From: Rariglobus sp.
Lineage (GTDB): Bacteria > Verrucomicrobiota > Verrucomicrobiia > Opitutales > Opitutaceae
NCBI GenBank assembly: GCA_029266495.1
Contig: JAQSWS010000005.1
Coordinates: 1 to 64,000 of the forward strand
DNA: 64,000 nt
Direction of reading: 5' to 3'
In this document: in pieces, positions 8,655-18,930 of the stretch
Position numbering within the stretch: the first letter of the stretch is position 1
Layout: every line of letters begins with the position of its first letter
Translations under genes and position numbers: made by a program
Notes under the pieces: model-generated
Told to the model about the DNA's origin: nothing
Seen by the model: only the letters and a program-made list of their open reading frames with translations
The model's database searches: none

Positions 8655-9551
8655 TCACGCCATCAATGCTTTGGTGTCGGTGCTGAGTTCGGCGTGTTTG
8701 TCGAAGCCGATAAAGATGCGGGCATTCGCGTTCTTGCCGACTTCCGAGAGGGTTTGCAGCTCGCGCAGGCGAACCAGAGCCGGGTGTTTGGCGTAGGCTT
8801 CGGCCGCCTGAGCTTGTTCGCGCAGCGCCTGCACCTCGGCTTCGGTGCGGATGCGGAGGGCTTCGGCCTCGGCACGAGCTTCACGGAGGTGGGCGTCGGC
8901 CAATGACACGGATGCCTTGGCGTCGCTTTCGACGGAGGCGGCGGCTTCGATCAGTTTAATCTGGGCCTTGGCCTCGGCGGCGATTTTCTGCTGCTCGGCC
9001 TGGGTGCGGCTTTCGACGAGCTGCGCTTGCGACAGGCGCTCGGCGGCGAGAACTTTGTTCATCACTTCCTGGAGGTTTCCGGGAAAGACGAGGTCCTTCA
9101 CGTCGGCTCGCTGGATCGCGATGCCGTAGCCGGCGGCGGTGCCTTTCACTTCGGCGAGGATGTCTTCGCTGAGGCGGTTCCGGTTGGTGAGAATCTGTTC
9201 GAGCGTCATCGACGCGAGGGAACGACGGGCGGCAAGCTGCACGTCGCTGTAGAGGCGTTCGTCGTGGTTGCTCACCTGATGCAGCGCGGCCACCGGGTCG
9301 GTGACTTTAAACTGCACGATGATGCTGACGCGGATCGCGACTTTGTCGGCGGTCAGGATTTCCTGCCCCTTGATCGTCAGGTCGCGCTCACGCACGTCCA
9401 CGAGCACGATCTCGACAAGCGGTGAGCGATAAAATGGCAAATTCCAGCGGCGGGGGATTTCGTAAAATCCGGGGCCGAGGACTTCCTGCATGATGCCGTC
9501 GGCATAACGCAGACCGCGGTGGGTGTCTTTGATGAGGAGGGTAGTTTTCAT
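8655..9551 (-). CDS. SPFH/slipin family protein
   Basis: MKTTLLIKDTHRGLRYADGIMQEVLGPGFYEIPRRWNLPFYRSPLVEIVLVDVRERDLTIKGQEILTADKVAIRVS. Confidence 0.85.
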   Translation of the reverse strand: MKTTLLIKDTHRGLRYADGIMQEVLGPGFYEIPRRWNLPFYRSPLVEIVLVDVRERDLTIKGQEILTADKVAIRVSIIVQFKVTDPVAALHQVSNHDERLYSDVQLAARRSLASMTLEQILTNRNRLSEDILAEVKGTAAGYGIAIQRADVKDLVFPGNLQEVMNKVLAAERLSQAQLVESRTQAEQQKIAAEAKAQIKLIEAAASVESDAKASVSLADAHLREARAEAEALRIRTEAEVQALREQAQAAEAYAKHPALVRLRELQTLSEVGKNANARIFIGFDKHAELSTDTKALMA

Positions 9552-9739
9552 TTTTAAAGCGGATGCTCCGAAGCGAGGCCCATGCTGAAGTAATGACCGA
9601 ATCAGATCGGTTTCGCCGATACGGTGAGGTGGCGAATCTTGTTGGCGGTCATCTTCATGGCGTCGCCGGAGCAAAGTCTGGAAAGGGTGTGTGAATGCCC
9701 GCAGACGGTGACACCGTGCGGGCGGGTTTGGCTAATTAA

Positions 9740-11272
9740 TCAGAGCTGGGTTTCAGTAAGGCCTTCGCGGCGCTCGCTCTTGTGTGCGGCGCGTTTTTCG
9801 CGACGGACACGCTGCCAATGCGGCTCCGGAGCTTCACCGGCCATGATGCAGCCTTGCGGGTGGATCTCACCGACTACGGTCGCGAGACCAAAGCGAGCGA
9901 TCTGGGCCTTTACTTTCGTCGCGTCCTTGTAGCCGAGCGGAGACTCGGAGAGGTCGGCGGCACCGTTATACCAGCGCACGTCGATTCCCTGCGTCACTGC
10001 GGACAGGACTTCCTTCAGGCGGGCCGGATCGATCTCACCCTCGGCGTCCTTGTAAGGACGCAGCATCGCGGTGCGCGACAGGTTGCGTCCGGCGCCGTGC
10101 GGGCAGAACGACAGGTAGTCGGTGTTATCCGAACCGAGCACGAGCAGGATTTCACGCGCCATGTTGAGCGGGATCAGACCAAGCAGCGGACGCCCTTGCT
10201 CATCCCGCCAGGCGGGCGTGGCACCTTTTCCATGGAAGAACACGTCGCCGCGTTTCCATACAAAGTTATGCTCGTTGCCGATCTGCACGAGGGCGCGCTG
10301 ACCCAGACGGCCCAAAAAGGCGGCATGGATCTGGGCGTGGTTTTCACGGGTCCAGCGACCGATGTATTGCAAGGCGTCCCAATAGGCGCGGCCTTCCTCG
10401 GAATCCGCCGGCAGCCAGACGGCGGCATCGGGGATACCTTGGGTGTTTTCGTCGCACCAACGGCGTGCGGCGATTTGACCACGCTTGTAGAGGTCCGCAC
10501 CGAGACCGCGCGACCCATGATGGGTCACGAGAACGCTAAACTTGCCTTCGCGGCGGACGATCCACTCAGCCAGCTCCGTGTAACCGGCGGTCTCGATGGC
10601 GAGACGTTGCTCCTCGGTGAACTGAATCTGCCCCACATAGGCGAAGTGGTTGCCGTCGCCCTGCGTGCCGAGGAAATCCTGGGCGCGGCTGCGCAGACCG
10701 GAAAGGAACGGATTATCCCACACCGACTCGTCGAGCACAGCGGACGAAAACTGCTTTCCACGCGGACGGCCACCGGCACCGAAATGCGTGATTTTTTGAA
10801 GATGATCCATCATCTCGCCCACCGGATGGTTGGCGTCGAAGAAGGTCGCGAACATCGAGCAGCAGATATCCGCCGAATGCGCGCCCGGGATGATGGCGTT
10901 TTCAACCGCAATGGCTCCGCCCACCGGGATGGTCGCGGTCCCACCTCCGGTCGGGCAGGTGTCGGGCATCAACACGCCGCGCTGCACCACCGGCACGTGA
11001 AGGAGTTCCTTCATACGGATACGGGATGAGGCCACATTGGCAGCCTCCTCAAGAGTGTCGGCTTCGACGGCCTCCGCCAACGGAGCACCCACCGGACGCG
11101 GCTGGATCAGCGGCGGCTGTTTCGGGAAGTCCTGTTCGAGTTGAGCAAAGAGGAGGGCGCGATCGAGGCCGGTGGCATCGAGTTCACGGGCACGGCGCAG
11201 GGCCGAACCAAGACGGCGGCCTTCGAGCCAGCCGGCCGCGATCAGGTCGCGGGCTTTGATTTCCATGGTCAT
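9740..11272 (-). CDS. rtcB: RtcB family RNA ligase
   Basis: MPDTCPTGGGTATIPVGGAIAVENAIIPGAHSADICCSM, GSRGLGADLYKRG, QIGNEHNFVW, FCPHGAGRNLSRTAM, VGEIHPQGCIMAGE. Confidence 0.93.
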   Translation of the reverse strand: MTMEIKARDLIAAGWLEGRRLGSALRRARELDATGLDRALLFAQLEQDFPKQPPLIQPRPVGAPLAEAVEADTLEEAANVASSRIRMKELLHVPVVQRGVLMPDTCPTGGGTATIPVGGAIAVENAIIPGAHSADICCSMFATFFDANHPVGEMMDHLQKITHFGAGGRPRGKQFSSAVLDESVWDNPFLSGLRSRAQDFLGTQGDGNHFAYVGQIQFTEEQRLAIETAGYTELAEWIVRREGKFSVLVTHHGSRGLGADLYKRGQIAARRWCDENTQGIPDAAVWLPADSEEGRAYWDALQYIGRWTRENHAQIHAAFLGRLGQRALVQIGNEHNFVWKRGDVFFHGKGATPAWRDEQGRPLLGLIPLNMAREILLVLGSDNTDYLSFCPHGAGRNLSRTAMLRPYKDAEGEIDPARLKEVLSAVTQGIDVRWYNGAADLSESPLGYKDATKVKAQIARFGLATVVGEIHPQGCIMAGEAPEPHWQRVRREKRAAHKSERREGLTETQL

Positions 11273-11372
11273 GATTATAAAGAAGAGAGTTGGAGGAATC
11301 GGACGGGGGTTTTTTCTGGGAAAAGAATAACCCATATTGTGCGATCCGGATAGAGGAGAGGGTGCATAATAC

Positions 11373-11537: not shown

Positions 11538-12191
11538 TTATATTGGGGAGGGAGTGGAGAGCGCGGTCTCTTCACGAAGCGTAAGGCCGGCGGGACGGCG
11601 GCGGTGCCACCAATCTTTTCGACCGTGCAGATTGCCGAGACGTTCTCGTCCGCGCGTGTGCGTGAAACGGGCGTCGATCTCGGCGATGCGGCGACGCACT
11701 TCGGGGAGTTCCACGCGCTGATGCGTAATCATCCAGGGCTGCACGTCTTCCTCCAGCCACCACGGGTTGCGGATGGAGAAACCGACGACCAGGCGACGGC
11801 GGCGGTAAGACCGGCGCGGTAGCAGTTCCTCTTCCCACGGTCCGTAGGTGAACAGGCGGCGATGGCTGGCCGGCCAGGGCAGACGCTTCCACTCCAGCGG
11901 CAGAATGATACGCGGACGAAGACGATACGTCTGCCCGTCGGGCAGGATGAAATCGGGTTCACGCGACCAGATCCGCTGGTTAACGGCGGCCAGCACGGTG
12001 CGGAACACCGCGACGTCGATGCGGCGGCGAATGTCGTCGCGGAGCACATAGGTCTTGGTCCAGCCGCGTGGGTAGGGCTCGACCAACGGAACCACCGGCG
12101 CGAGGCTGAGCGCACGGCGTAGTTGGTCGTGTTCGCGCTCGAGACGGAGGAGTTCCTTGTCGCGGGCGGTGTGTTTATCGAGAAAGCGCAT
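11538..12191 (-). CDS. Hypothetical Arg-rich basic protein, RNA-repair locus associated
   Basis: Intact 217-aa ORF between rtcB and sigma factor, many Arg/Trp (RRSYRRRRLVVGFSIRNPWWLEEDVQPW). Confidence 0.7.
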   Translation of the reverse strand: MRFLDKHTARDKELLRLEREHDQLRRALSLAPVVPLVEPYPRGWTKTYVLRDDIRRRIDVAVFRTVLAAVNQRIWSREPDFILPDGQTYRLRPRIILPLEWKRLPWPASHRRLFTYGPWEEELLPRRSYRRRRLVVGFSIRNPWWLEEDVQPWMITHQRVELPEVRRRIAEIDARFTHTRGRERLGNLHGRKDWWHRRRPAGLTLREETALSTPSPI

Positions 12192-12212: not shown

Positions 12213-12920
12213 TCAGTCGCGGCTGCGGTTGACGAAGGACTGCCAGAGGGCGAGGACAACGAAGTCGGCGCGGAGCTTTTTTTCGCCGGCTTCGCGGACC
12301 TGACGCGCACGCTCGCGCGAGACGCCGAGTTCGGCGGCGATGTCGTCGAGCGTGGCGTCTTCGAGGTAGTAACGGCGGAGCGCCAGCGACTGGTTGGCGG
12401 GCAGGCGCGTGAGCGCGACGCCGAGGCTGTCGCGGACGTCGTCGAGTTCGACAAACTCGGCGGGCGACGGCAGGTGGGTGTCGGGGATCGAATCCCACTC
12501 GATCTCGGTGGTGTCGGCGACTTGCGCGGCGGCGTTGATCACGGAGGCGACCTCGGCGATCGTGAGTTGGACGGACGCGGCGATCTCTTGCGCGGTCGGG
12601 ACGCGACCGAGACGGGTGGCGAGTTCGGTGCGAGTGCGCGCGATGAGGCCGATCCGGTCGCGTTGGCGGCGGCTCAGCGGATCGAGGCGGCGGAGTTCGT
12701 CGAGCATGGCGCCGCGCACGCGCACGTAGCAGTAGGCGCGCACGTCGTCGGGATCGCCGTCGCGTTGGCCGAGCGCGGCGATGAGCGCGAGTTTGCCGAC
12801 GGACGCGAGGTCATCGCGCGCGACGCCGGACGGCAGACGCCGGGCAAGGGTGGCGAGCGCGGTTTCCACTATGTCGAGGAAGTCGGCGAGCGCCGGAGGG
12901 AATGGAGACACACAGGTCAT
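12213..12920 (-). CDS. RNA polymerase sigma factor, FliA/WhiG (sigma-28) type
   Basis: YVRVRGAMLDELRRLDPLSRRQRDRI, LGRVPTAQEIA, DDIAAELGVSRERARQVREAGEKKLRADF. Confidence 0.88.
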   Translation of the reverse strand: MTCVSPFPPALADFLDIVETALATLARRLPSGVARDDLASVGKLALIAALGQRDGDPDDVRAYCYVRVRGAMLDELRRLDPLSRRQRDRIGLIARTRTELATRLGRVPTAQEIAASVQLTIAEVASVINAAAQVADTTEIEWDSIPDTHLPSPAEFVELDDVRDSLGVALTRLPANQSLALRRYYLEDATLDDIAAELGVSRERARQVREAGEKKLRADFVVLALWQSFVNRSRD

Positions 12921-12999: not shown

Positions 13000-13632
13000 T
13001 CAGTGCGTGAGGAAGTGTCGCCAGTCCGGGTGTCGGGCGTCGCGGATCGCGACGGACGCCGGCAGCGGCGCGGGGGCTTTGGGCCTGCGCAGCAACCGGA
13101 GTCCGGCTTCGTGCGGGAGTCGGTTGGCCTTGAGGGAGTTGATCTCCCGCTTGGCCCACACGAGGTTCTCGAACGTGTCGCGTCCGCCGCGGTCGCGGGG
13201 GACGACGTGGTCGAGGTTGCCCCCAAGCCGCCCGACACGTTCGCCGGTGTATTGGCAGACGCCGCCGTCGCGCTCGAAGATCGCCTCGCGAGAGAGACGT
13301 GGGGTGTGAACCGGCATTTTCGCGAACTGGGTCGCGACGATGACGGTGGGCACGCGGATGCGGAGTTTCGGCGTGGTGATCGCGAAATCGAAATCACGCA
13401 CGGGCAGTTCGATCCACTCGCTCCAGGGGAGCGGGTTGAGGAAAAGCGGGCGGTCGAAGTTCCAGCCACCGTCGTCGAGTTTCGGATACGCGATGTCGAG
13501 GCCGAGCGCGGGCGGCAGGCTGGCGTTGCCGCCGTTGAGGGCGACAAGTGCCTGCTTGACGGTGCGGTGACCGATGACCTGCCAGGCGCGGTTGAGCGAC
13601 AGGACGATGGGTTTGTCGAGGATGTCAGACAT
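13000..13632 (-). CDS. HNH endonuclease
   Basis: IVLSLNRAWQVIGHRTVKQALVALNGG then IFERDGGVCQYTGERVGRLGGNLDHVVPRDRGGRDTFENLVWAKREINSLKANR. Confidence 0.88.
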   Translation of the reverse strand: MSDILDKPIVLSLNRAWQVIGHRTVKQALVALNGGNASLPPALGLDIAYPKLDDGGWNFDRPLFLNPLPWSEWIELPVRDFDFAITTPKLRIRVPTVIVATQFAKMPVHTPRLSREAIFERDGGVCQYTGERVGRLGGNLDHVVPRDRGGRDTFENLVWAKREINSLKANRLPHEAGLRLLRRPKAPAPLPASVAIRDARHPDWRHFLTH

Positions 13633-13690
13633 GGGAAAAAGTGATGATGGTGAAAAAGGAGAGATCCTCGCGGAGCCCGGTCAGCCAACA

Positions 13691-13711
13691 ACGGTGTGTG
13701 TTCTTTTTTGT
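13691..13711. repeat. 21-bp terminal inverted repeat, left copy (ACGGTGTGTGTTCTTTTTTGT)
   Basis: Perfect reverse complement at 18746..18766; adjacent to last tRNA of array. Confidence 0.9.
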
Positions 13712-13717
13712 TAAAAT

Positions 13718-13792
13718 TGGATCTCCGCGCCGGGCTTGCGCCGGCCTCTGCGGTTTACAAAACCGCGGCATCGCTACCTATGCTTGCAGAGA
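13718..13792 (-). tRNA. tRNA-Thr(TGT), T-loop CGCAAGC
   Basis: Acceptor TCTCTGC/GCGGAGA, T73-CCA encoded, anticodon loop TTTGTAA. Confidence 0.85.
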
Positions 13793-13796
13793 GTTA

Positions 13797-13885
13797 TGGC
13801 GGAGGACTGAGGTCCTGCCCCCCAGCGACCACGTGTCGCCGCACGCGTTAGCACCGCGGCTCCCGACTTCCGGGATAAGTCCTCC
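13797..13885 (-). tRNA. tRNA-Ser(GCT), class II, T-loop GGCAGGA
   Basis: Acceptor GGAGGAC/GTCCTCC, G73-CCA, loop GTGCTAA, long variable arm. Confidence 0.8.
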
Positions 13886-13889
13886 AAAC

Positions 13890-13963
13890 TGGTCCACCCA
13901 CTTGGTATCGCGCCAAGGTCTGCCGGTTATCAGCCGGCTGCTCTGCTTTTGAGCTATGGGTGG
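13890..13963 (-). tRNA. tRNA-Ile(GAT), T-loop CGCGATA
   Basis: Acceptor CCACCCA/TGGGTGG, A73-CCA, D-arm GCTC-AAAAGCA-GAGC, anticodon arm GCCGG-CTGATAA-CCGGC. Confidence 0.9.
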
Positions 13964-13968
13964 AAAAT

Positions 13969-14058
13969 TGGCGGAGAGCGGAGGTCTTGCACCCCAACCG
14001 GTCTGGCCGGTCCATCTGTTTTCAAGACAGCGTCCGCGCCTCGGCGGATTCACTCTCC
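13969..14058 (-). tRNA. tRNA-Ser(TGA), class II, T-loop TGCAAGA
   Basis: Acceptor GGAGAGT/GCTCTCC, G73-CCA, loop CTTGAAA, long variable arm. Confidence 0.85.
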
Positions 14059-14060
14059 AA

Positions 14061-14220
14061 TGGTCTCCACGGCAGGAATTGCACCTGCGTTGATCCGCTT
14101 AGAAGACGGATGCCTGATCTATTGTTCGCCGTGCTGCCCGACGGGCACCCGCACGGCTCACCTTCGCTTCGCTCAGGCTACGCCCTCTCCGCGCTGCCGC
14201 GCTACGTCGGCCACACGGAG
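14061..14220 (-). tRNA. tRNA-Arg(TCT) with large D-loop insertion, T-loop TGCAATT
   Basis: Acceptor CTCCGTG/CGTGGAG, A73-CCA, loop CTTCTAA; hairpin insertion between D-stem halves. Confidence 0.75.
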
Positions 14221-14225
14221 AAAAG

Positions 14226-14301
14226 TGGCAGGCCCGGTCGGAATTGCACCGACACTATTCCGCGTTCGAAGCGCGGCTGACTATCTTTTGCCGACAGGCC
14301 T
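14226..14301 (-). tRNA. tRNA-Arg(TCG), T-loop TGCAATT
   Basis: Acceptor AGGCCTG/CGGGCCT, G73-CCA, anticodon arm CCGCG-CTTCGAA-CGCGG. Confidence 0.9.
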
Positions 14302-14306
14302 GAAAA

Positions 14307-14381
14307 TGGTCCTCCTGCCAGGAATTGCACCTGGGGCTCGGCCTTCGCACGGCCGCGTGATGGCTTCTTCACTACAGGAGG
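14307..14381 (-). tRNA. tRNA-Arg(GCG), T-loop TGCAATT
   Basis: Acceptor CCTCCTG/CAGGAGG, A73-CCA, anticodon arm CGGCC-GTGCGAA-GGCCG, D-arm GTGA-AGAAGCCA-TCAC. Confidence 0.9.
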
Positions 14382-14431: not shown

Positions 14432-15871
14432 TCAATCCGCCAGAGGGACGGATTCCACCTCGTGGACAAGGGCCTCGGGATCGCGGTCGAGTTTCTGCAT
14501 GATCTCGAACACACGGTCGCTCCAACCGGCGAGGCAGTAGACCCGCTCCTGTGGGAACTGGAGCGTGCCGTTGCCTTTCAGGTCGAAGCTGTAAACCAGG
14601 GGCGCCACCGCATAACGCTTCTGATAAGCGGCAAACGGCTGCACCGGCGCACCGCCACCGATCCAGCCCTGCATGTCGGACAGAATCACGATGCGATCAT
14701 AAGCACGGTTGGCCCGCTCGAAGATCGCATTGAAGTTCGTCCCGCCCGCCGCAAACGGAATGCTGGCGGCCGCCGTAAGCGTGCTATCACGACGGTTCAG
14801 CGAGATGTAGCGGGCATCATCACTGAAGACCATGAGATCCGCCCCCGTTACCTTGACCAGCACGGCCGCAAACAGGGAGCCGATCGTTTGCGGACGACCC
14901 GCCATCGAGCCCGACGAATCGAGCGCGATCAGCGTGTTGCCTTCAAACTTCGGCACGTTTGCCAGCGAGAAATCAATCGCCTGGTTAAGCGCATCCATCA
15001 CTTTGTCCGCGCCCTGCAGGTTGCCCTGCTTGAGCACTTCGACCGCCGAGAGGAACTGAAACGGAAACACCAGCGAGCGGCGCACGGCACGCTCGTCGGT
15101 GAGTTGATCGCACAGCTCCTTCGCCACCTCGGGAGCATGAGTCAGGACGTTACGCACGTTACGCAGAAGGGCCAGGTAACCGAGCTTACGCTCACGCACC
15201 AGCTCCGCCCACGCTTGAGACTTGGCGACGGCGACATCGCCACCGGCCTCGCCCTGCCCTGCCTGGGTCAGCTTGGTTTCCCACGTTTCCGCAGGAGCCA
15301 GCTCATCCCGGACAAGCTTGGACAGGGCAGCCGATGACTTCGGACGAACCAGGTTAACGGCATCGACCAGCTTGAAGACGCCGTGATCCCGTCTGTATTT
15401 GGCGAGTTGATACTCGTCAAATCGGCCAAGCGCGGCACCCAGACCCTTTTTCAGGGAGTTCGGGATCGGACGGCCGTAGACCGCCAGATAGTAACCGAGC
15501 GTCTCCATGACATCATCCGGGCGGCGCACCACTTCGGCATAGAAATGCTTCGTCCATGACTGGCCCTTCACTGACTTGGCCAGCTCACCCGCGACCAGGT
15601 GACTGACCGACCGCATACCATGGGTATTGCGAGCATAGAGGGCGGCTTTGGCGACGAAACGCGGATCATTCACTTTCGTGATGAGTTCGCGGATGCGAGC
15701 CGTGGTCTGCTTCTCCGTGCGGTAGAACTCGTCCTCCAGAAACGTGGTCAGGAGAATCGAAACGAATTCGAGTTTGGCGGTCTGGGCGAAAGCCCGACCA
15801 CCTGCAAAGTTGACCGTGTCGGGCGCGGACTTGCGGCGCGACAGGGCGGTAAGAATACTGAATTTAGCCAT
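14432..15871 (-). CDS. rsr: TROVE domain protein (Ro60 ortholog)
   Basis: TROVE-type HEAT repeats (RELITKVNDPRFVAKAALYARNTHGMRSVSHLVAGELA) and C-terminal vWA MIDAS NTLIALDSSGSMAGRP. Confidence 0.92.
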   Translation of the reverse strand: MAKFSILTALSRRKSAPDTVNFAGGRAFAQTAKLEFVSILLTTFLEDEFYRTEKQTTARIRELITKVNDPRFVAKAALYARNTHGMRSVSHLVAGELAKSVKGQSWTKHFYAEVVRRPDDVMETLGYYLAVYGRPIPNSLKKGLGAALGRFDEYQLAKYRRDHGVFKLVDAVNLVRPKSSAALSKLVRDELAPAETWETKLTQAGQGEAGGDVAVAKSQAWAELVRERKLGYLALLRNVRNVLTHAPEVAKELCDQLTDERAVRRSLVFPFQFLSAVEVLKQGNLQGADKVMDALNQAIDFSLANVPKFEGNTLIALDSSGSMAGRPQTIGSLFAAVLVKVTGADLMVFSDDARYISLNRRDSTLTAAASIPFAAGGTNFNAIFERANRAYDRIVILSDMQGWIGGGAPVQPFAAYQKRYAVAPLVYSFDLKGNGTLQFPQERVYCLAGWSDRVFEIMQKLDRDPEALVHEVESVPLAD

Positions 15872-15951: not shown

Positions 15952-16085
15952 TTGTGGGAGAAATTCGCCCTCGGAGACGGTCTTGCGACCGCTGCTGCTC
16001 TACCACTGAGCTACGCGTGGAAACGCGGATGGAGTCGAACCACCGACCGACAGTTTAGAAGTAACCGAGAACTCACTGTCCACAA
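15952..16085 (-). ncRNA. YrlA-like Y RNA candidate (epsilon)
   Basis: Outer stem TTGTGG/CCACAA; ACAGTGAG...GGTTACTTC motif; T-arm GGTGG-TTCGACT-CCATC then CGCG-TTTCCA-CGCG closed acceptor then TAGCTCAGTGGTAGAGC D-arm (permuted order). Confidence 0.65.
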
Positions 16086-16092
16086 AGAGAGA

Positions 16093-16185
16093 CGAGGGAG
16101 AAACGTGAACGCGGGTTTCTGGGTTTGAACCAGATCATCTGTTTAGGAGGTTTTCCGAAGTAACCGCGCTCTCACCACCCTCGAA
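16093..16185 (-). ncRNA. YrlA-like Y RNA candidate (delta), truncated tRNA-like module
   Basis: Outer stem CGAGGG/CCCTCG; GTGAGAGCGCGGTTACTTC motif; T-arm TCTGG-TTCAAAC-CCAGA; no D-arm found. Confidence 0.5.
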
Positions 16186-16189
16186 GAGA

Positions 16190-16330
16190 TTCGGAGGAGA
16201 AAGCCGAACACAGGTTTTTTTATCTGAGCTACGGCTCCCGCGAGGGAACCGGTTGGCATCGAAACCAACGACCTTCCCCACCGAAATGGAGCTGCTCTAC
16301 CGAAGTAACTGCATTCTCACTGCCTCCGAA
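16190..16330 (-). ncRNA. YrlA-like Y RNA candidate (gamma), circularly permuted tRNA-like module opened in D-loop
   Basis: Outer stem TTCGGAGG/CCTCCGAA; CAGTGAGAATGCAGTTACTTC; GGTAGAGC...GTTGG-TTTCGATG-CCAAC-CGGTTCC then GGAGCCG-TA-GCTCAG: 7/7 acceptor pairing in permuted order. Confidence 0.7.
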
Positions 16331-16335
16331 ATAAA

Positions 16336-16483
16336 TTCTGGGAGAAACACAGGCGAAGTCCCCCTGGAGCCCTTCCCATCGCTTACTCACGTAAACGACA
16401 GGCGCTCGTATTTGCAGCCATGGTTCGCGCCAGGCACGGGGATTCGGGTTGGAGCGAAGTAGCTTCACCTTCACTGCCCAGAA
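16336..16483 (-). ncRNA. YrlA-like Y RNA candidate (beta), degenerate tRNA-like module
   Basis: Outer stem TTCTGGG/CCCAGAA; CAGTGAAGGTGAAGCTACTTC motif; trailing TTTCTCC. Confidence 0.5.
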
Positions 16484-16489
16484 AAAGAA

Positions 16490-16677
16490 TCCAAGAGACG
16501 GAGCGTAGCGGAGAAGGGGCCACCGAAGGTGGAGTCCGCAGGACCGCGCACAGCGCGCCAACACCGACCAGAGACGATAACGTGCTCTACCCATTGAGCT
16601 ACCTCCCCGTAAATGATGGGGAGGATCGGACTCGAACCGACAACCACGCGCGAAGTAACTCTGATCTCACTGCTTGG
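16490..16677 (-). ncRNA. YrlA-like Y RNA candidate (alpha), interrupted by a 70-bp insertion
   Basis: Outer stem CCAAG/CTTGG; CAGTGAGATCAGAGTTACTTC; T-arm GTCGG-TTCGAGT-CCGAT-CCTCCCC then GGGGAGG-TA-GCTCAATGGGTAGAGC (7/7 acceptor, permuted). Confidence 0.68.
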
Positions 16678-16720: not shown

Positions 16721-16805
16721 TGGTCGGCGGGACAGGACTCGCACCTGCACGGGCTCGCGCCCACGAGTTTCTGAGACTCGCGTGTATGCATTCCACCACC
16801 CGCCG
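16721..16805 (-). tRNA. tRNA-Leu(CAG), T-loop TGCGAGT
   Basis: Acceptor CGGCGGG/CCCGCCG perfect, A73-CCA, anticodon arm CGAGT-CTCAGAA-ACTCG, long variable arm. Confidence 0.88.
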
Positions 16806-16812
16806 AAAAAAC

Positions 16813-16903
16813 TGGTGCGGCCGGAGAGATTCGCACTCTCACGAGCTTGCGCTCCGCTCTTCCCGATACCAACGGGATGCGTCGCTTCCTACGCTTGGCC
16901 GGC
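16813..16903 (-). tRNA. tRNA-Thr(GGT)-like, degenerate acceptor, extended variable region, T-loop TGCGAAT
   Basis: A73-CCA, T-stem GAGAG/CTCTC, anticodon arm TCCCG-TTGGTAT-CGGGA; acceptor only about 4/7 paired. Confidence 0.6.
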
Positions 16904-16910
16904 ATAAAAA

Positions 16911-17082
16911 TGGTCGAGACGGAAGGACTCGCACCTTCGCAGTCCGTGAGGACGGCGCGTTTACAGCGCGCTGCAATTGCTGTTGTTCGCCATGCCGCCC
17001 AGACGGCACCCGCATGGCTCACCCCTCGCGGTGCTCAGGGCTACGCCGTCTCCGCGCTACGCGCTTCGTCTGCCACGTCTCG
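16911..17082 (-). tRNA. tRNA-Tyr(GTA) with large D-loop insertion, T-loop TGCGAGT
   Basis: Acceptor CGAGACG/CGTCTCG perfect, A73-CCA, anticodon arm GCGCG-CTGTAAA-CGCGC, class II variable arm. Confidence 0.8.
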
Positions 17083-17086
17083 AAAT

Positions 17087-17162
17087 TGGAGGCTCGGGCG
17101 GGATTCGCACCCGCACGGACACGGCGTATGAAACCGTCGCACTGCTGTTGTGCTACCGAGCC
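17087..17162 (-). tRNA. tRNA-Met(CAT) elongator-like, T-loop TGCGAAT
   Basis: Acceptor GGCTCGG/CCGAGCC perfect, T73-CCA, D-arm GCAC-AACAGCA-GTGC, loop TTCATAC. Confidence 0.85.
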
Positions 17163-17166
17163 AAAA

Positions 17167-17241
17167 TGGTGGGTCGCCTCGGTAATGCTCCGAGTTCTGC
17201 CGGTTAAGAGCCGGCTGCTTCACGGTTAAAGCTTACGACCC
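17167..17241 (-). tRNA. tRNA-Lys(CTT), T-loop AGCATTA
   Basis: Acceptor GGGTCGT/GCGACCC, A73-CCA, anticodon arm GCCGG-CTCTTAA-CCGGC. Confidence 0.85.
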
Positions 17242-17252
17242 GTGGGAAAATA

Positions 17253-17327
17253 TGGCTCCTCGGGCAGGTTCCGCCCCTGCACCTCCGCATTAACAGTGCG
17301 GCGTTCTGCTAGTTGAACTACCAAGGA
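17253..17327 (-). tRNA. tRNA-Asn(GTT), T-loop GGCGGAA
   Basis: Acceptor TCCTTGG/CCGAGGA, G73-CCA, D-arm GTTC-AACTAGCA-GAAC, anticodon arm CCGCA-CTGTTAA-TGCGG. Confidence 0.87.
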
Positions 17328-17334
17328 ATGAAAG

Positions 17335-17478
17335 TGGTCGAGGTGGAGGGATTGACTCGCGCTCACACGCTCGGGGCGTTGCCCCACGTCTGCGACGTGC
17401 CGGTCGGCCTGCTGGCCTCCCGCACCCCCGTTATGGCTGGGTGTAGGCCAGCTGCCCTAGCTGCTAGGCGACACCTCG
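17335..17478 (-). tRNA. tRNA-Val(TAC) with T-loop insertion and C33
   Basis: Acceptor CGAGGTG/CACCTCG perfect, A73-CCA, anticodon arm GCTGG-CCTACAC-CCAGC; T-stem GGGGG/CCCTC split by hairpin insertion. Confidence 0.72.
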
Positions 17479-17482
17479 AAAT

Positions 17483-17621
17483 TGGCGCTCGTGATCGGAC
17501 TTGCACCGATTGACTTCCCTTCGACAAAGGGCTGATTGGCTCGCTGCGCTCGGGTCTTTGACCTCCGCCTGCGGCGGCCCCTTCTCCGCTACGCTCCGTC
17601 GACTCCTTCATCTCCACGAGC
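17483..17621 (-). tRNA. tRNA-Asp(GTC) with D-loop insertion, T-loop TGCAAGT
   Basis: Acceptor GCTCGTG/CACGAGC perfect, G73-CCA, loop TTGTCGA, T-stem ATCGG/CCGAT. Confidence 0.78.
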
Positions 17622-17627
17622 AAAAGG

Positions 17628-17703
17628 TGGTCAGGTGGGTGGGACTTGCACCCACTTCCCCGGCTTCACGGGCCGGTGCCCCGCTGACTGGGCCACGCAC
17701 CTG
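17628..17703 (-). tRNA. tRNA-His(GTG) with C33, T-loop TGCAAGT
   Basis: Acceptor CAGGTGC/CCACCTG (6/7), A73-CCA, anticodon arm CCGGC-CCGTGAA-GCCGG. Confidence 0.82.
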
Positions 17704-17707
17704 AAAA

Positions 17708-17782
17708 TGGTCGGAGCGGCGTGATTTGCACACGCGTAGCCTCGGTCCCAAGCCGAGTGCCTGACTTCTAGGCTACGCCCCG
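17708..17782 (-). tRNA. tRNA-Pro(TGG), T-loop TGCAAAT
   Basis: Acceptor CGGGGCG/CGCTCCG, A73-CCA, D-arm GCCT-AGAAGTC-AGGC, anticodon arm CTCGG-CTTGGGA-CCGAG. Confidence 0.88.
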
Positions 17783-17787
17783 AAAAT

Positions 17788-17923
17788 TGGATGCGGGTGT
17801 CGGTGGAGCGAAGCGGAACAGCGCACCAGCATGTGCGGGGCAAGGCCCCGAGTGCCAGCGAGTCAATCGCACCGACGGGCATCGTGGCTTATGAGACCAG
17901 ATGGAGACCTCGCTCTACCCGCG
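17788..17923 (-). tRNA. Initiator-like tRNA-fMet(CAT) with T-loop insertion
   Basis: C1xA72 mismatch (CGCGGGT/ACCCGCA), T73-CCA, loop CTCATAA, GGT/GCC at 29-31/39-41; T-stem GTCGG/CCGAC split by insertion after TGCGATT. Confidence 0.72.
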
Positions 17924-17928
17924 AAAAT

Positions 17929-18004
17929 TGGTGGAGGCTCGCGGTTTTGCTCCGCGCTCTCGTGGTCTTCAGCCACGCGCCATCACTAGATCGGCTTAAC
18001 CTCC
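17929..18004 (-). tRNA. tRNA-Phe(GAA), T-loop AGCAAAA
   Basis: Acceptor GGAGGTT/AGCCTCC, A73-CCA, anticodon arm CGTGG-CTGAAGA-CCACG. Confidence 0.85.
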
Positions 18005-18098
18005 AAGTGCCGGACTTCACCCCCCGGCGGGTCTTTCTACCTATATGGGACTTTTACCCACCCTGCTTGCGCAGTGTTACTCTTCATTCAGTCGAAAT

Positions 18099-18174
18099 TG
18101 GCATCCGCGGTGAGGATCGCACTCACCCGTTAGGTTTTGGAGACCAGACCGACCGCCTAGATCGTCTCGCGGAT
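18099..18174 (-). tRNA. tRNA-Trp(CCA), T-loop TGCGATC
   Basis: Acceptor ATCCGCG/CGCGGAT perfect, G73-CCA, loop CTCCAAA, T-stem GTGAG/CTCAC. Confidence 0.82.
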
Positions 18175-18179
18175 AAAAT

Positions 18180-18252
18180 TGGTGGAGCTGGACGGTAACG
18201 CTGTCGCCTCCGCGTTGCAGGCGCGGCGTGCTGCTCTTACTACTACAGCCCC
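18180..18252 (-). tRNA. tRNA-Ala(TGC), degenerate short T-arm, C33
   Basis: Acceptor GGGGCTG/CAGCTCC, A73-CCA, anticodon arm CCGCG-CCTGCAA-CGCGG; T-arm GACAG..CCGTC with shortened loop. Confidence 0.68.
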
Positions 18253-18256
18253 AAAA

Positions 18257-18332
18257 TGGACACGACGGCGGGACTTGCACCCGCGAACCTCGGCTTTGCA
18301 GACCGGTCCCTTGGCTGCTCGGGCACGTCGTG
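18257..18332 (-). tRNA. tRNA-Cys(GCA), T-loop TGCAAGT
   Basis: Acceptor CACGACG/CGTCGTG perfect, T73-CCA, loop CTGCAAA. Confidence 0.87.
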
Positions 18333-18410
18333 ATGAATACCTGCGACTCAGGTCGCTCGGCGTAGGAAGACTTCTCCGACGTCCGCCCTCAATGACCGCA
18401 GGGTAAGTGT

Positions 18411-18486
18411 TGGTGGAGCCGGCGGGAGTTGCACCCGCACCGTGCGGATTAAAAGTCCGCTGTGCTGCTGTTGACACCACAGCTCC
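18411..18486 (-). tRNA. tRNA-Lys(TTT), T-loop TGCAACT
   Basis: Acceptor GGAGCTG/CGGCTCC, A73-CCA, D-arm GTGT-CAACAGCA-GCAC, anticodon arm GCGGA-CTTTTAA-TCCGC. Confidence 0.9.
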
Positions 18487-18487
18487 G

Positions 18488-18561
18488 TGGTGCGCCTGGG
18501 GAGATTCGCACTCCCCACTCCGGACTGGCAGACCGGCACGTTACTCCTACGCTACAGGCGC
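18488..18561 (-). tRNA. tRNA-Gly(GCC), T-loop TGCGAAT
   Basis: Acceptor GCGCCTG/CAGGCGC perfect, A73-CCA, loop CTGCCAG, T-stem GGGAG/CTCCC. Confidence 0.9.
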
Positions 18562-18570
18562 AAATTAAAA

Positions 18571-18647
18571 TGGCCGCCTCGACGGGAGTCGCACCCGCAT
18601 CCCTCGGCTTGAAAGGCCGGGATCCTGGACTGTTAGACGACAAGGCG
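18571..18647 (-). tRNA. tRNA-Glu(TTC), T-loop TGCGACT
   Basis: Acceptor CGCCTTG/CGAGGCG, G73-CCA, loop CTTTCAA, T-stem GCGGG/CCCGT. Confidence 0.88.
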
Positions 18648-18656
18648 GAAAAATTG

Positions 18657-18709
18657 AAACGCACGGCCGGCATCACCGTTTAACACCCATCGGGGTGCAC
18701 CGTGCGTTT
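18657..18709 (-). ncRNA. Structured leader RNA / small three-way-junction RNA upstream of tRNA array
   Basis: 10-bp outer stem AAACGCACGG/CCGTGCGTTT enclosing CACCC-CGAT-GGGTG and CGG-TGATG-CCG hairpins. Confidence 0.5.
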
Positions 18710-18745
18710 GGTCGCAGAACCGCTCGAAAGCGGGCCTGCATTTTC

Positions 18746-18766
18746 ACAAAAAAGAACACACACCGT
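18746..18766. repeat. 21-bp terminal inverted repeat, right copy
   Basis: ACAAAAAAGAACACACACCGT, perfect reverse complement of 13691..13711. Confidence 0.9.
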
Positions 18767-18930
18767 CGTCCCTCTCACGCCGACAAAGTCGGGGTGGTTT
18801 GGACGGCCGCAGGATTTTATGCGGTCGTTGGCTGATTGACTGGGCTCAGCGATGAAGCCGCTTACGGAATATGGAAAACGAGTGTGAACTCGGCTTTCCG
18901 GAAGCGGCCCGCTGGCTTGAGGCACAAAAA

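Follow-up and report, generated by a model that had tools for sequence, protein, structure and literature searches.

The window analysed here is the whole 64,000-nucleotide stretch of DNA from Rariglobus sp. (contig JAQSWS010000005.1, positions 1 to 64,000 of the forward strand), in a genome of 4.9 Mb. It harbours a locus in which, read along the minus strand, a tRNA array is followed by five units resembling Y RNAs, a Ro60 gene, further tRNAs, and the genes for an HNH nuclease, a sigma factor, a protein without family match, the RNA ligase RtcB and an SPFH protein (Table 1). An earlier note made from the sequence had recognised genes of the Y RNA type directly upstream of Ro60, and the PF05731 match bears this out; the rest of the setting, namely the tRNA locus with its altered elbow together with RtcB, HNH, the sigma factor and SPFH, had been overlooked. 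A PADLOC search returned no defence system apart from a weak HNH match.

Table 1. Positions of the features of the locus within the window
Feature	Positions	Strand	Remarks
SPFH/band-7 (slipin-like) gene	8655-9674	-	PF01145 4.9e-29
RtcB RNA ligase gene	9740-11335	-	PF01139 4.3e-33
Conserved protein, without family match	11538-12191	-	
FliA/WhiG-like sigma factor gene	12213-12920	-	
HNH nuclease gene	13000-13632	-	
30-nt inverted repeat, array boundary	13688-13717	+	partner at 18740-18769
tRNA array, downstream part	13718-14381	-	first tRNA is Arg(gcg)
Ro60/TROVE (Rsr) gene	14432-15871	-	DSSGS motif; PF05731 4.5e-21; sequence profile also finds Ro60/Rsr structures
Y-like unit 5 (class E)	15952-16085	-	T-arm, closed acceptor, D-arm, GCAA-capped anticodon arm; YrlA 39.0 bits
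Y-like unit 4 (class D)	16093-16183	-	short; T-arm hairpin on Y stem
Y-like unit 3 (class C position)	16190-16330	-	tRNA body opened in D-loop; UUCG caps anticodon arm
Y-like unit 2 (class B)	16336-16483	-	conserved non-tRNA payload, two hairpins
Y-like unit 1 (class A)	16491-16677	-	T-arm, loop-closed acceptor, D-arm; Y stem joins at anticodon loop; YrlA 38.0 bits
65-nt repeat inside unit 1	16497-16561		second copy inverted at 17536-17600
tRNA array, upstream part	16721-18647	-	A18/G55 elbow
Partner arm of array-bounding inverted repeat	18740-18769	-	

The pair of inverted repeats (core ACGGTGTGTGTTCTTTTTTG) encloses the entire array, including the units and Ro60. Its arms are near-identical at both ends in most of the related arrays examined, with concerted changes in loci L030 and L033, and it could represent a stem closing a transcript, operators or the ends of an element. 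Between the upstream repeat and the first array tRNA lies a GC-rich, hairpin-like stretch (18650-18740) with GTTAAACGG, which is conserved in L028, L030, L164 and L165. Several tRNA-like genes of the array are split by GC-rich, palindrome-like inserts (14100-14220, 16980-17075, 17365-17425, 17536-17600 and 17800-17870), and unit 1 has been struck by one of these repeats as well.

The contact between G18 and pseudouridine 55 is a conserved element of the tRNA elbow (PMC4810234, whose references include studies of the 18-55 pair and rapid translocation). According to our own tRNA finder, A18/G55 is instead present in 12 of the 13 tRNAs of the window array, which cover many isotypes between 13718 and 18647, as well as in 101 of 118 array tRNAs of Opitutaceae loci, 110 of 146 tRNAs of Verrucomicrobiaceae loci and 21 of 25 tRNAs of a 225-kb phage contig. 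Elsewhere in the genome, G18/U55 was found in 31 of 32 sampled tRNAs, drawn from the best-scoring 30 of 55 matches, a choice which favours canonical tRNAs. A cruder ARAGORN count is consistent with the swap in the array, and the Rfam alignment of the window tRNA-Met displays both changes. The window array is partly degenerate relative to that of L028; the best-preserved ones, L079 and L080, hold 24-27 different anticodons according to the same finder. The phage contig (L150, IMGVR_UViG_3300006931_000029) carries 36 tRNAs, most of them with the altered elbow. It also has at least eight leaders of the Y type, and Ro60 (54%) with HNH, adjoined by portal and baseplate proteins. Contact-dependent toxins which cleave at T54-Psi55 exist, and the elbow change of the array may represent an escape from an elbow-reading enzyme.

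Leader, stems and trailer of the five units

The leader pattern GTGAN{6,10}GNTACTTC has five matches in the 64 kb, all located at the units and on the minus strand, against 0.02 in shuffled sequences, so the common leader and the five minus-strand units described previously are well founded. When the spacing is set to 7 nt, six matches are found in the 4.9 Mb of the genome, five of them at this locus; a genome-wide search with eight spacer bases had no match because the true spacing is seven. The constant part of the units is a double stem with the leader CAGTGAG..GTTACTTC and the trailer TTTCTCC. Outer stems close in all five units, and the complementary strands proposed for each were found exactly as written. 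The trailer had been attributed to every unit and is present in four of them, units 2-5. Its absence from unit 1 is explained by the 65-nt repeat, which has replaced the 3' part of the unit: it sits between the inner stem and CTTGG, where the intact relatives L028, L034 and L030 have TTTCTCC. The repeat is 82% complementary to its second copy inside the array, no further copy was found in the genome, and unit 1 of this genome may have been damaged by its insertion.

Homologous units were recovered from 15 related Opitutaceae loci, mostly metagenome bins, by a finder tuned on leader and trailer, which misses units with other ends. Several of these loci share the same classes (A-E, with boundaries of our own), and L028 keeps the exact class order A-B-C-D-E. 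Among the orthologues of unit 5, 19 of 37 pairs changed on both sides, and 93% of the alignment cells are paired, where shuffles reach 82% and slid alignments no more than 52%. For unit 2 the corresponding figures are 20 of 46 pairs and 95% of cells, and for unit 4, 10 of 23 pairs; the covariation of units 2 and 5 was reached in none of 500 shuffles. The structures were derived from the same alignments and the slid controls lean towards them, yet the gap is still large. The strong covariation claimed from the five outer stems thus holds among the orthologues of units 2, 4 and 5. As it is seen in both outer and inner stems, the 5' and 3' ends pair, which corresponds to a bacterial Y RNA in the broad sense. 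Folding, which the earlier note had suggested as a check, was less informative: single-unit energies are only moderately below those of shuffles (z -1.4 to -2.8), and since this is weak evidence the structural case is built on covariation.

Payloads and circular permutation

In order to detect permuted tRNAs, the payload ends of units 1, 2, 3 and 5 were joined, with trimming, and the resulting circles were searched with ARAGORN, using 60 shuffles per unit as a control; unit 4 was too short for this procedure. A tRNA spanning the junction was found in units 1, 3 and 5, whose linear payloads had no match and whose shuffles gave 0/60 each, and no tRNA was found by ARAGORN in the circularised payload of unit 2. 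The cut point lies in the anticodon loop in unit 1, the D-loop in unit 3 and the variable region of the tRNA body in unit 5. Of the permuted tRNA modules ascribed to five tandem units, those of units 1, 3 and 5 are therefore confirmed, unit 5 not having been called permuted before, while the payload of unit 2 does not resemble a tRNA and that of unit 4 is minimal. The distinct openings already proposed for units 1 and 3 are correct.

In the fold of unit 3 (z -2.8), the anticodon, T and acceptor arms form hairpins around a junction that is closed by the D-stem, and the acceptor itself ends in a 4-nt loop. Tetraloops cap the anticodon arm, UUCG in unit 3, GCAA in unit 5 and GAAA or GCGA in the class C relatives. 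With their acceptor ends fused by a short loop and without a 7-nt anticodon loop, units 3 and 5 lack the functional anticodon loop and the maturable 3' end of a permuted tRNA gene. More generally, units 1, 3 and 5 have no free 3' end, and a tetraloop wherever the anticodon arm is unattached, so neither charging nor decoding is possible. The payload of unit 2 consists of two hairpins with the conserved sequences ACGAGCGC and GGAAGGGCTCCAGGG, for which only chance-level matches were retrieved from Rfam and from the rest of the genome, and unit 4 amounts to a T-arm hairpin and little more. The notion of tRNA mimicry hence does not cover all five units.

In other Verrucomicrobia (L093, L094, L099 and L110), the same stem bears a tRNA body in normal order, attached at the acceptor, and several of these acceptor-attached units keep a 7-nt anticodon loop, as does a unit of the Ereboglobus type with an Arg(cct) body (L037, L038). 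The circularisation test was also positive for the acceptor-opened units of Verrucomicrobiaceae (L094, L099). Several lineages, phage contigs among them, also have bare stems of about 70 nt, devoid of any payload (L041 at 2258, L092 at 7830, L106 at 7395).

Among the units in which both arms were recognised, 33 have G18/U55, one of them (in L029) with a doubtful D-arm match, five have A18/G55, and none is mixed. All those of Opitutaceae are G18/U55; the T-loop of the class C unit of L034, for which no D-arm call was obtained, is of the TGC type. A rule by which all units are canonical and all array tRNAs swapped was rejected, as the five A18/G55 units, all outside Opitutaceae, break it.

Link with Ro60 and possible roles of the units

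Leaders are present in 16 of 16 Ro60-bearing Opitutaceae loci, with one to six in each, and in none of five arrays without Ro60 (L164, L165, L166, L168 and L170), which are elbow-altered and accompanied by HNH, the sigma factor and RtcB. A dependence of the units on the array was rejected, given that these Ro60-less arrays have none; the units are still present in L031 and L039, which have Ro60 but no detected array. In L028, the units and Ro60 are placed between Thr(tgt) and Arg(gcg), and in L164, which has no Ro60, the same two tRNAs are 5 nt apart, as in an empty site. The empty site and the co-occurrence indicate that units and Ro60 form one cassette, gained or lost within a locus composed of array, HNH, sigma factor and RtcB.

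On a broader scale, related units adjoin Ro60 in Verrucomicrobiaceae, Chthoniobacter, Saprospiraceae, Thermoanaerobaculia and IMG/VR contigs; the Opitutaceae units were found next to Ro60/TROVE and only together with it, and those of the phage and Verrucomicrobiaceae loci are likewise adjacent to it. Upstream of distant Ro60 genes, GNTACTTC occurs 44 times in 43 kb, with about two occurrences expected, and this enrichment gives it the appearance of a widespread Ro60-linked motif. In the 1.2 kb upstream of Ro60 in L114-L149, from alphaproteobacteria and others, tRNA-like modules come after the motif, and there are often several of them in one locus. Five copies at one locus had been considered unusual, an opinion which these counts weaken, as several Y-like genes per locus seem common. 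Two GNTACTTC motifs directly precede the Ro60 gene (47%) of the huge phage LR745206, where neither ARAGORN nor our own finder located a tRNA array.

We consider it reasonably probable (about 0.6) that the five units make up a diversified family of Y RNAs with Ro60 as their partner, and that they tether this protein to different faces of a surface shaped like a tRNA. The observations behind this reading are the anatomy of the units, their covariation, the class order in L028, the strict co-occurrence with Ro60 and the permutation; binding to Ro60, the identity of the bound enzymes, stress-dependent induction and an involvement in tRNA damage or translational stress are its predictions. Each unit would combine one constant stem with one variable payload. 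The double stem most likely docks on the Ro60 ring, a site proposed on the basis of co-occurrence because the leader does not match the corresponding 5' strand of the Rfam YrlA model; the payload-free stems are what would be expected if the stem alone were the docking part. The tRNA bodies, with their own ends fused, would have been opened elsewhere to take in the Y stem, and the cut point would decide which face of the tRNA shape is exposed. By analogy with the Ro60-YrlA-PNPase complex, the most likely ligands of the payloads are tRNA-handling enzymes, such as the RtcB of the locus, PNPase or tRNA-modifying enzymes.

A less likely alternative, though the strongest of those considered, is that the tRNA-shaped payloads are decoys which soak up a tRNA-directed nuclease or toxin, being stabilised and displayed by Ro60: they would offer a canonical elbow without anticodon or free 3' end, and the elbow-altered array tRNAs would sustain translation. 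The uniform G18/U55 of the recognised Opitutaceae units, set against array tRNAs of the same family which are predominantly A18/G55 (101/118), speaks in its favour, as do the tetraloops replacing the anticodon loops of units 3 and 5 and the suggestion by Hughes et al. that YrlA might act as a competitive inhibitor of an anticodon nuclease (PMC7790460). However, the contrast is not universal, considering the five A18/G55 units outside Opitutaceae and the TGC T-loop of the L034 class C unit, and array and units are also found apart, so that joint action is not required. A related and even more tentative idea is a two-layer answer to tRNA attack, in which a near-complete spare set of tRNAs with an orthogonal elbow (A18/G55) would be resistant or invisible to elbow-reading enzymes, and anticodon-less tRNA bodies with a normal elbow, opened at various points, would be displayed by Ro60 as bait or adaptors for these enzymes.

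It is very improbable that the units are permuted tRNA genes whose precursors are cut and re-ligated into functional tRNAs, for example by the neighbouring RtcB. Three units are truly circularly permuted and an RNA ligase is encoded in the locus, but units 3 and 5 have tetraloops in the place of 7-nt anticodon loops, a short loop joins the two acceptor ends, the conserved part is the closing Y stem, and the units track Ro60 rather than RtcB. Chance resemblance, or decaying array tRNA genes with an acquired common flank, would suit the interrupted unit 1 and the partly degenerate window array, yet it is hardly credible in view of the covariation (0/500 shuffles), the conservation across Opitutaceae, Verrucomicrobiaceae, Saprospiraceae and phage contigs, and the 0.02 leaders expected.

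Most of what is known about bacterial Y RNAs comes from YrlA, with its single way of opening the tRNA. If the tether reading is true, one docking stem with rotating cut points and non-tRNA payloads would make Ro60 RNAs modular adaptors, and the unit series would provide ready reagents for finding binding partners. Moreover, the coordinated change of the nearly universal 18-55 contact across many isotypes of the array turns a second, orthogonal tRNA set in cells and phages into a testable question.

Comparison with known systems

YrlA is a modular RNA: Rsr attaches to its basal stem and PNPase to its tRNA-like domain, which is also a substrate for modification by TruB and DusA (PMC8394870). Relative to tRNA, its module has been described as circularly permuted (PMC11472068), so a permuted module is not unusual in itself. 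The units described here resemble YrlA (RF02553; Salmonella structure 6CU1) in the Y stem closing a module of T-arm, closed acceptor and D-arm, and in the position beside Ro60/Rsr. This order on a long terminal stem is found in units 1 and 5, according to the cmscan alignment and folding, and not in units 2, 3 and 4. Scoring with the YrlA covariance model, as had been recommended, recovered these same two units (38.0 and 39.0 bits, E about 2-4e-6) below the gathering score of 69, and had no match for units 2-4. At gathering level Rfam reports ordinary tRNAs only at the locus, YrlA surfacing only at the E-value threshold, and with scores about 30 bits under the cut-off units 1 and 5 are divergent. 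The 5' strand of the Rfam model (GGCGAAUGC type) is absent from the units, which have leaders of the GRCAGTGAG type instead. In comparison with YrlA, both leader and trailer differ, modules opened in the D-loop, the variable region or, in relatives, the acceptor are also present, and the locus family adds stems without payload as well as a payload that is not tRNA-like. No description of Y RNAs opened elsewhere in the tRNA, or loaded with non-tRNA cargo, was found in the literature consulted, which covers the primary Y RNA studies through secondary sources, and the novelty of combining them on one stem is provisional. The Deinococcus Y RNA (RF01053) is likewise a Ro60 partner RNA; its model had only a chance-level match, to a homologue of unit 4 (16 bits, E 6.8).

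The circularly permuted tRNA genes known from algae and archaea (PMC3978253) share with the units the reversed order of tRNA halves. Those genes, however, mature via splicing motifs into functional tRNAs (PMC3978253), whereas here the ends are fused, anticodon loops are missing and a Y stem closes the RNA.

As for the locus as a whole, the Salmonella rsr-yrlBA-rtcBA RNA repair operon (PMC7790460) similarly unites Ro60, more than one Y RNA and RtcB. The present locus differs from it in the tRNA array, the FliA/WhiG-like sigma factor, HNH and SPFH, in a larger and more diverse Y set, and in that neither RtcA nor RtcR was found among the genes examined. The trn array of Anabaena is silent until translational stress and, as part of the TrcR regulon, is repressed jointly with rtcB and the genes for a slipin and an HNH protein (PMC10272220). 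Its T-loops are canonical except for Glu(ctc), and no Ro60 or Y units were noted there; on plasmid delta of Nostoc PCC 7120 (L163, locus 2507-2584), Glu(ctc) combines a TGC T-loop with a D-loop that lacks GG, and it is the sole such tRNA seen in that array. As a large tRNA array associated with rtcB, slipin and HNH, the Anabaena trn operon offers the closest working analogy for the locus.
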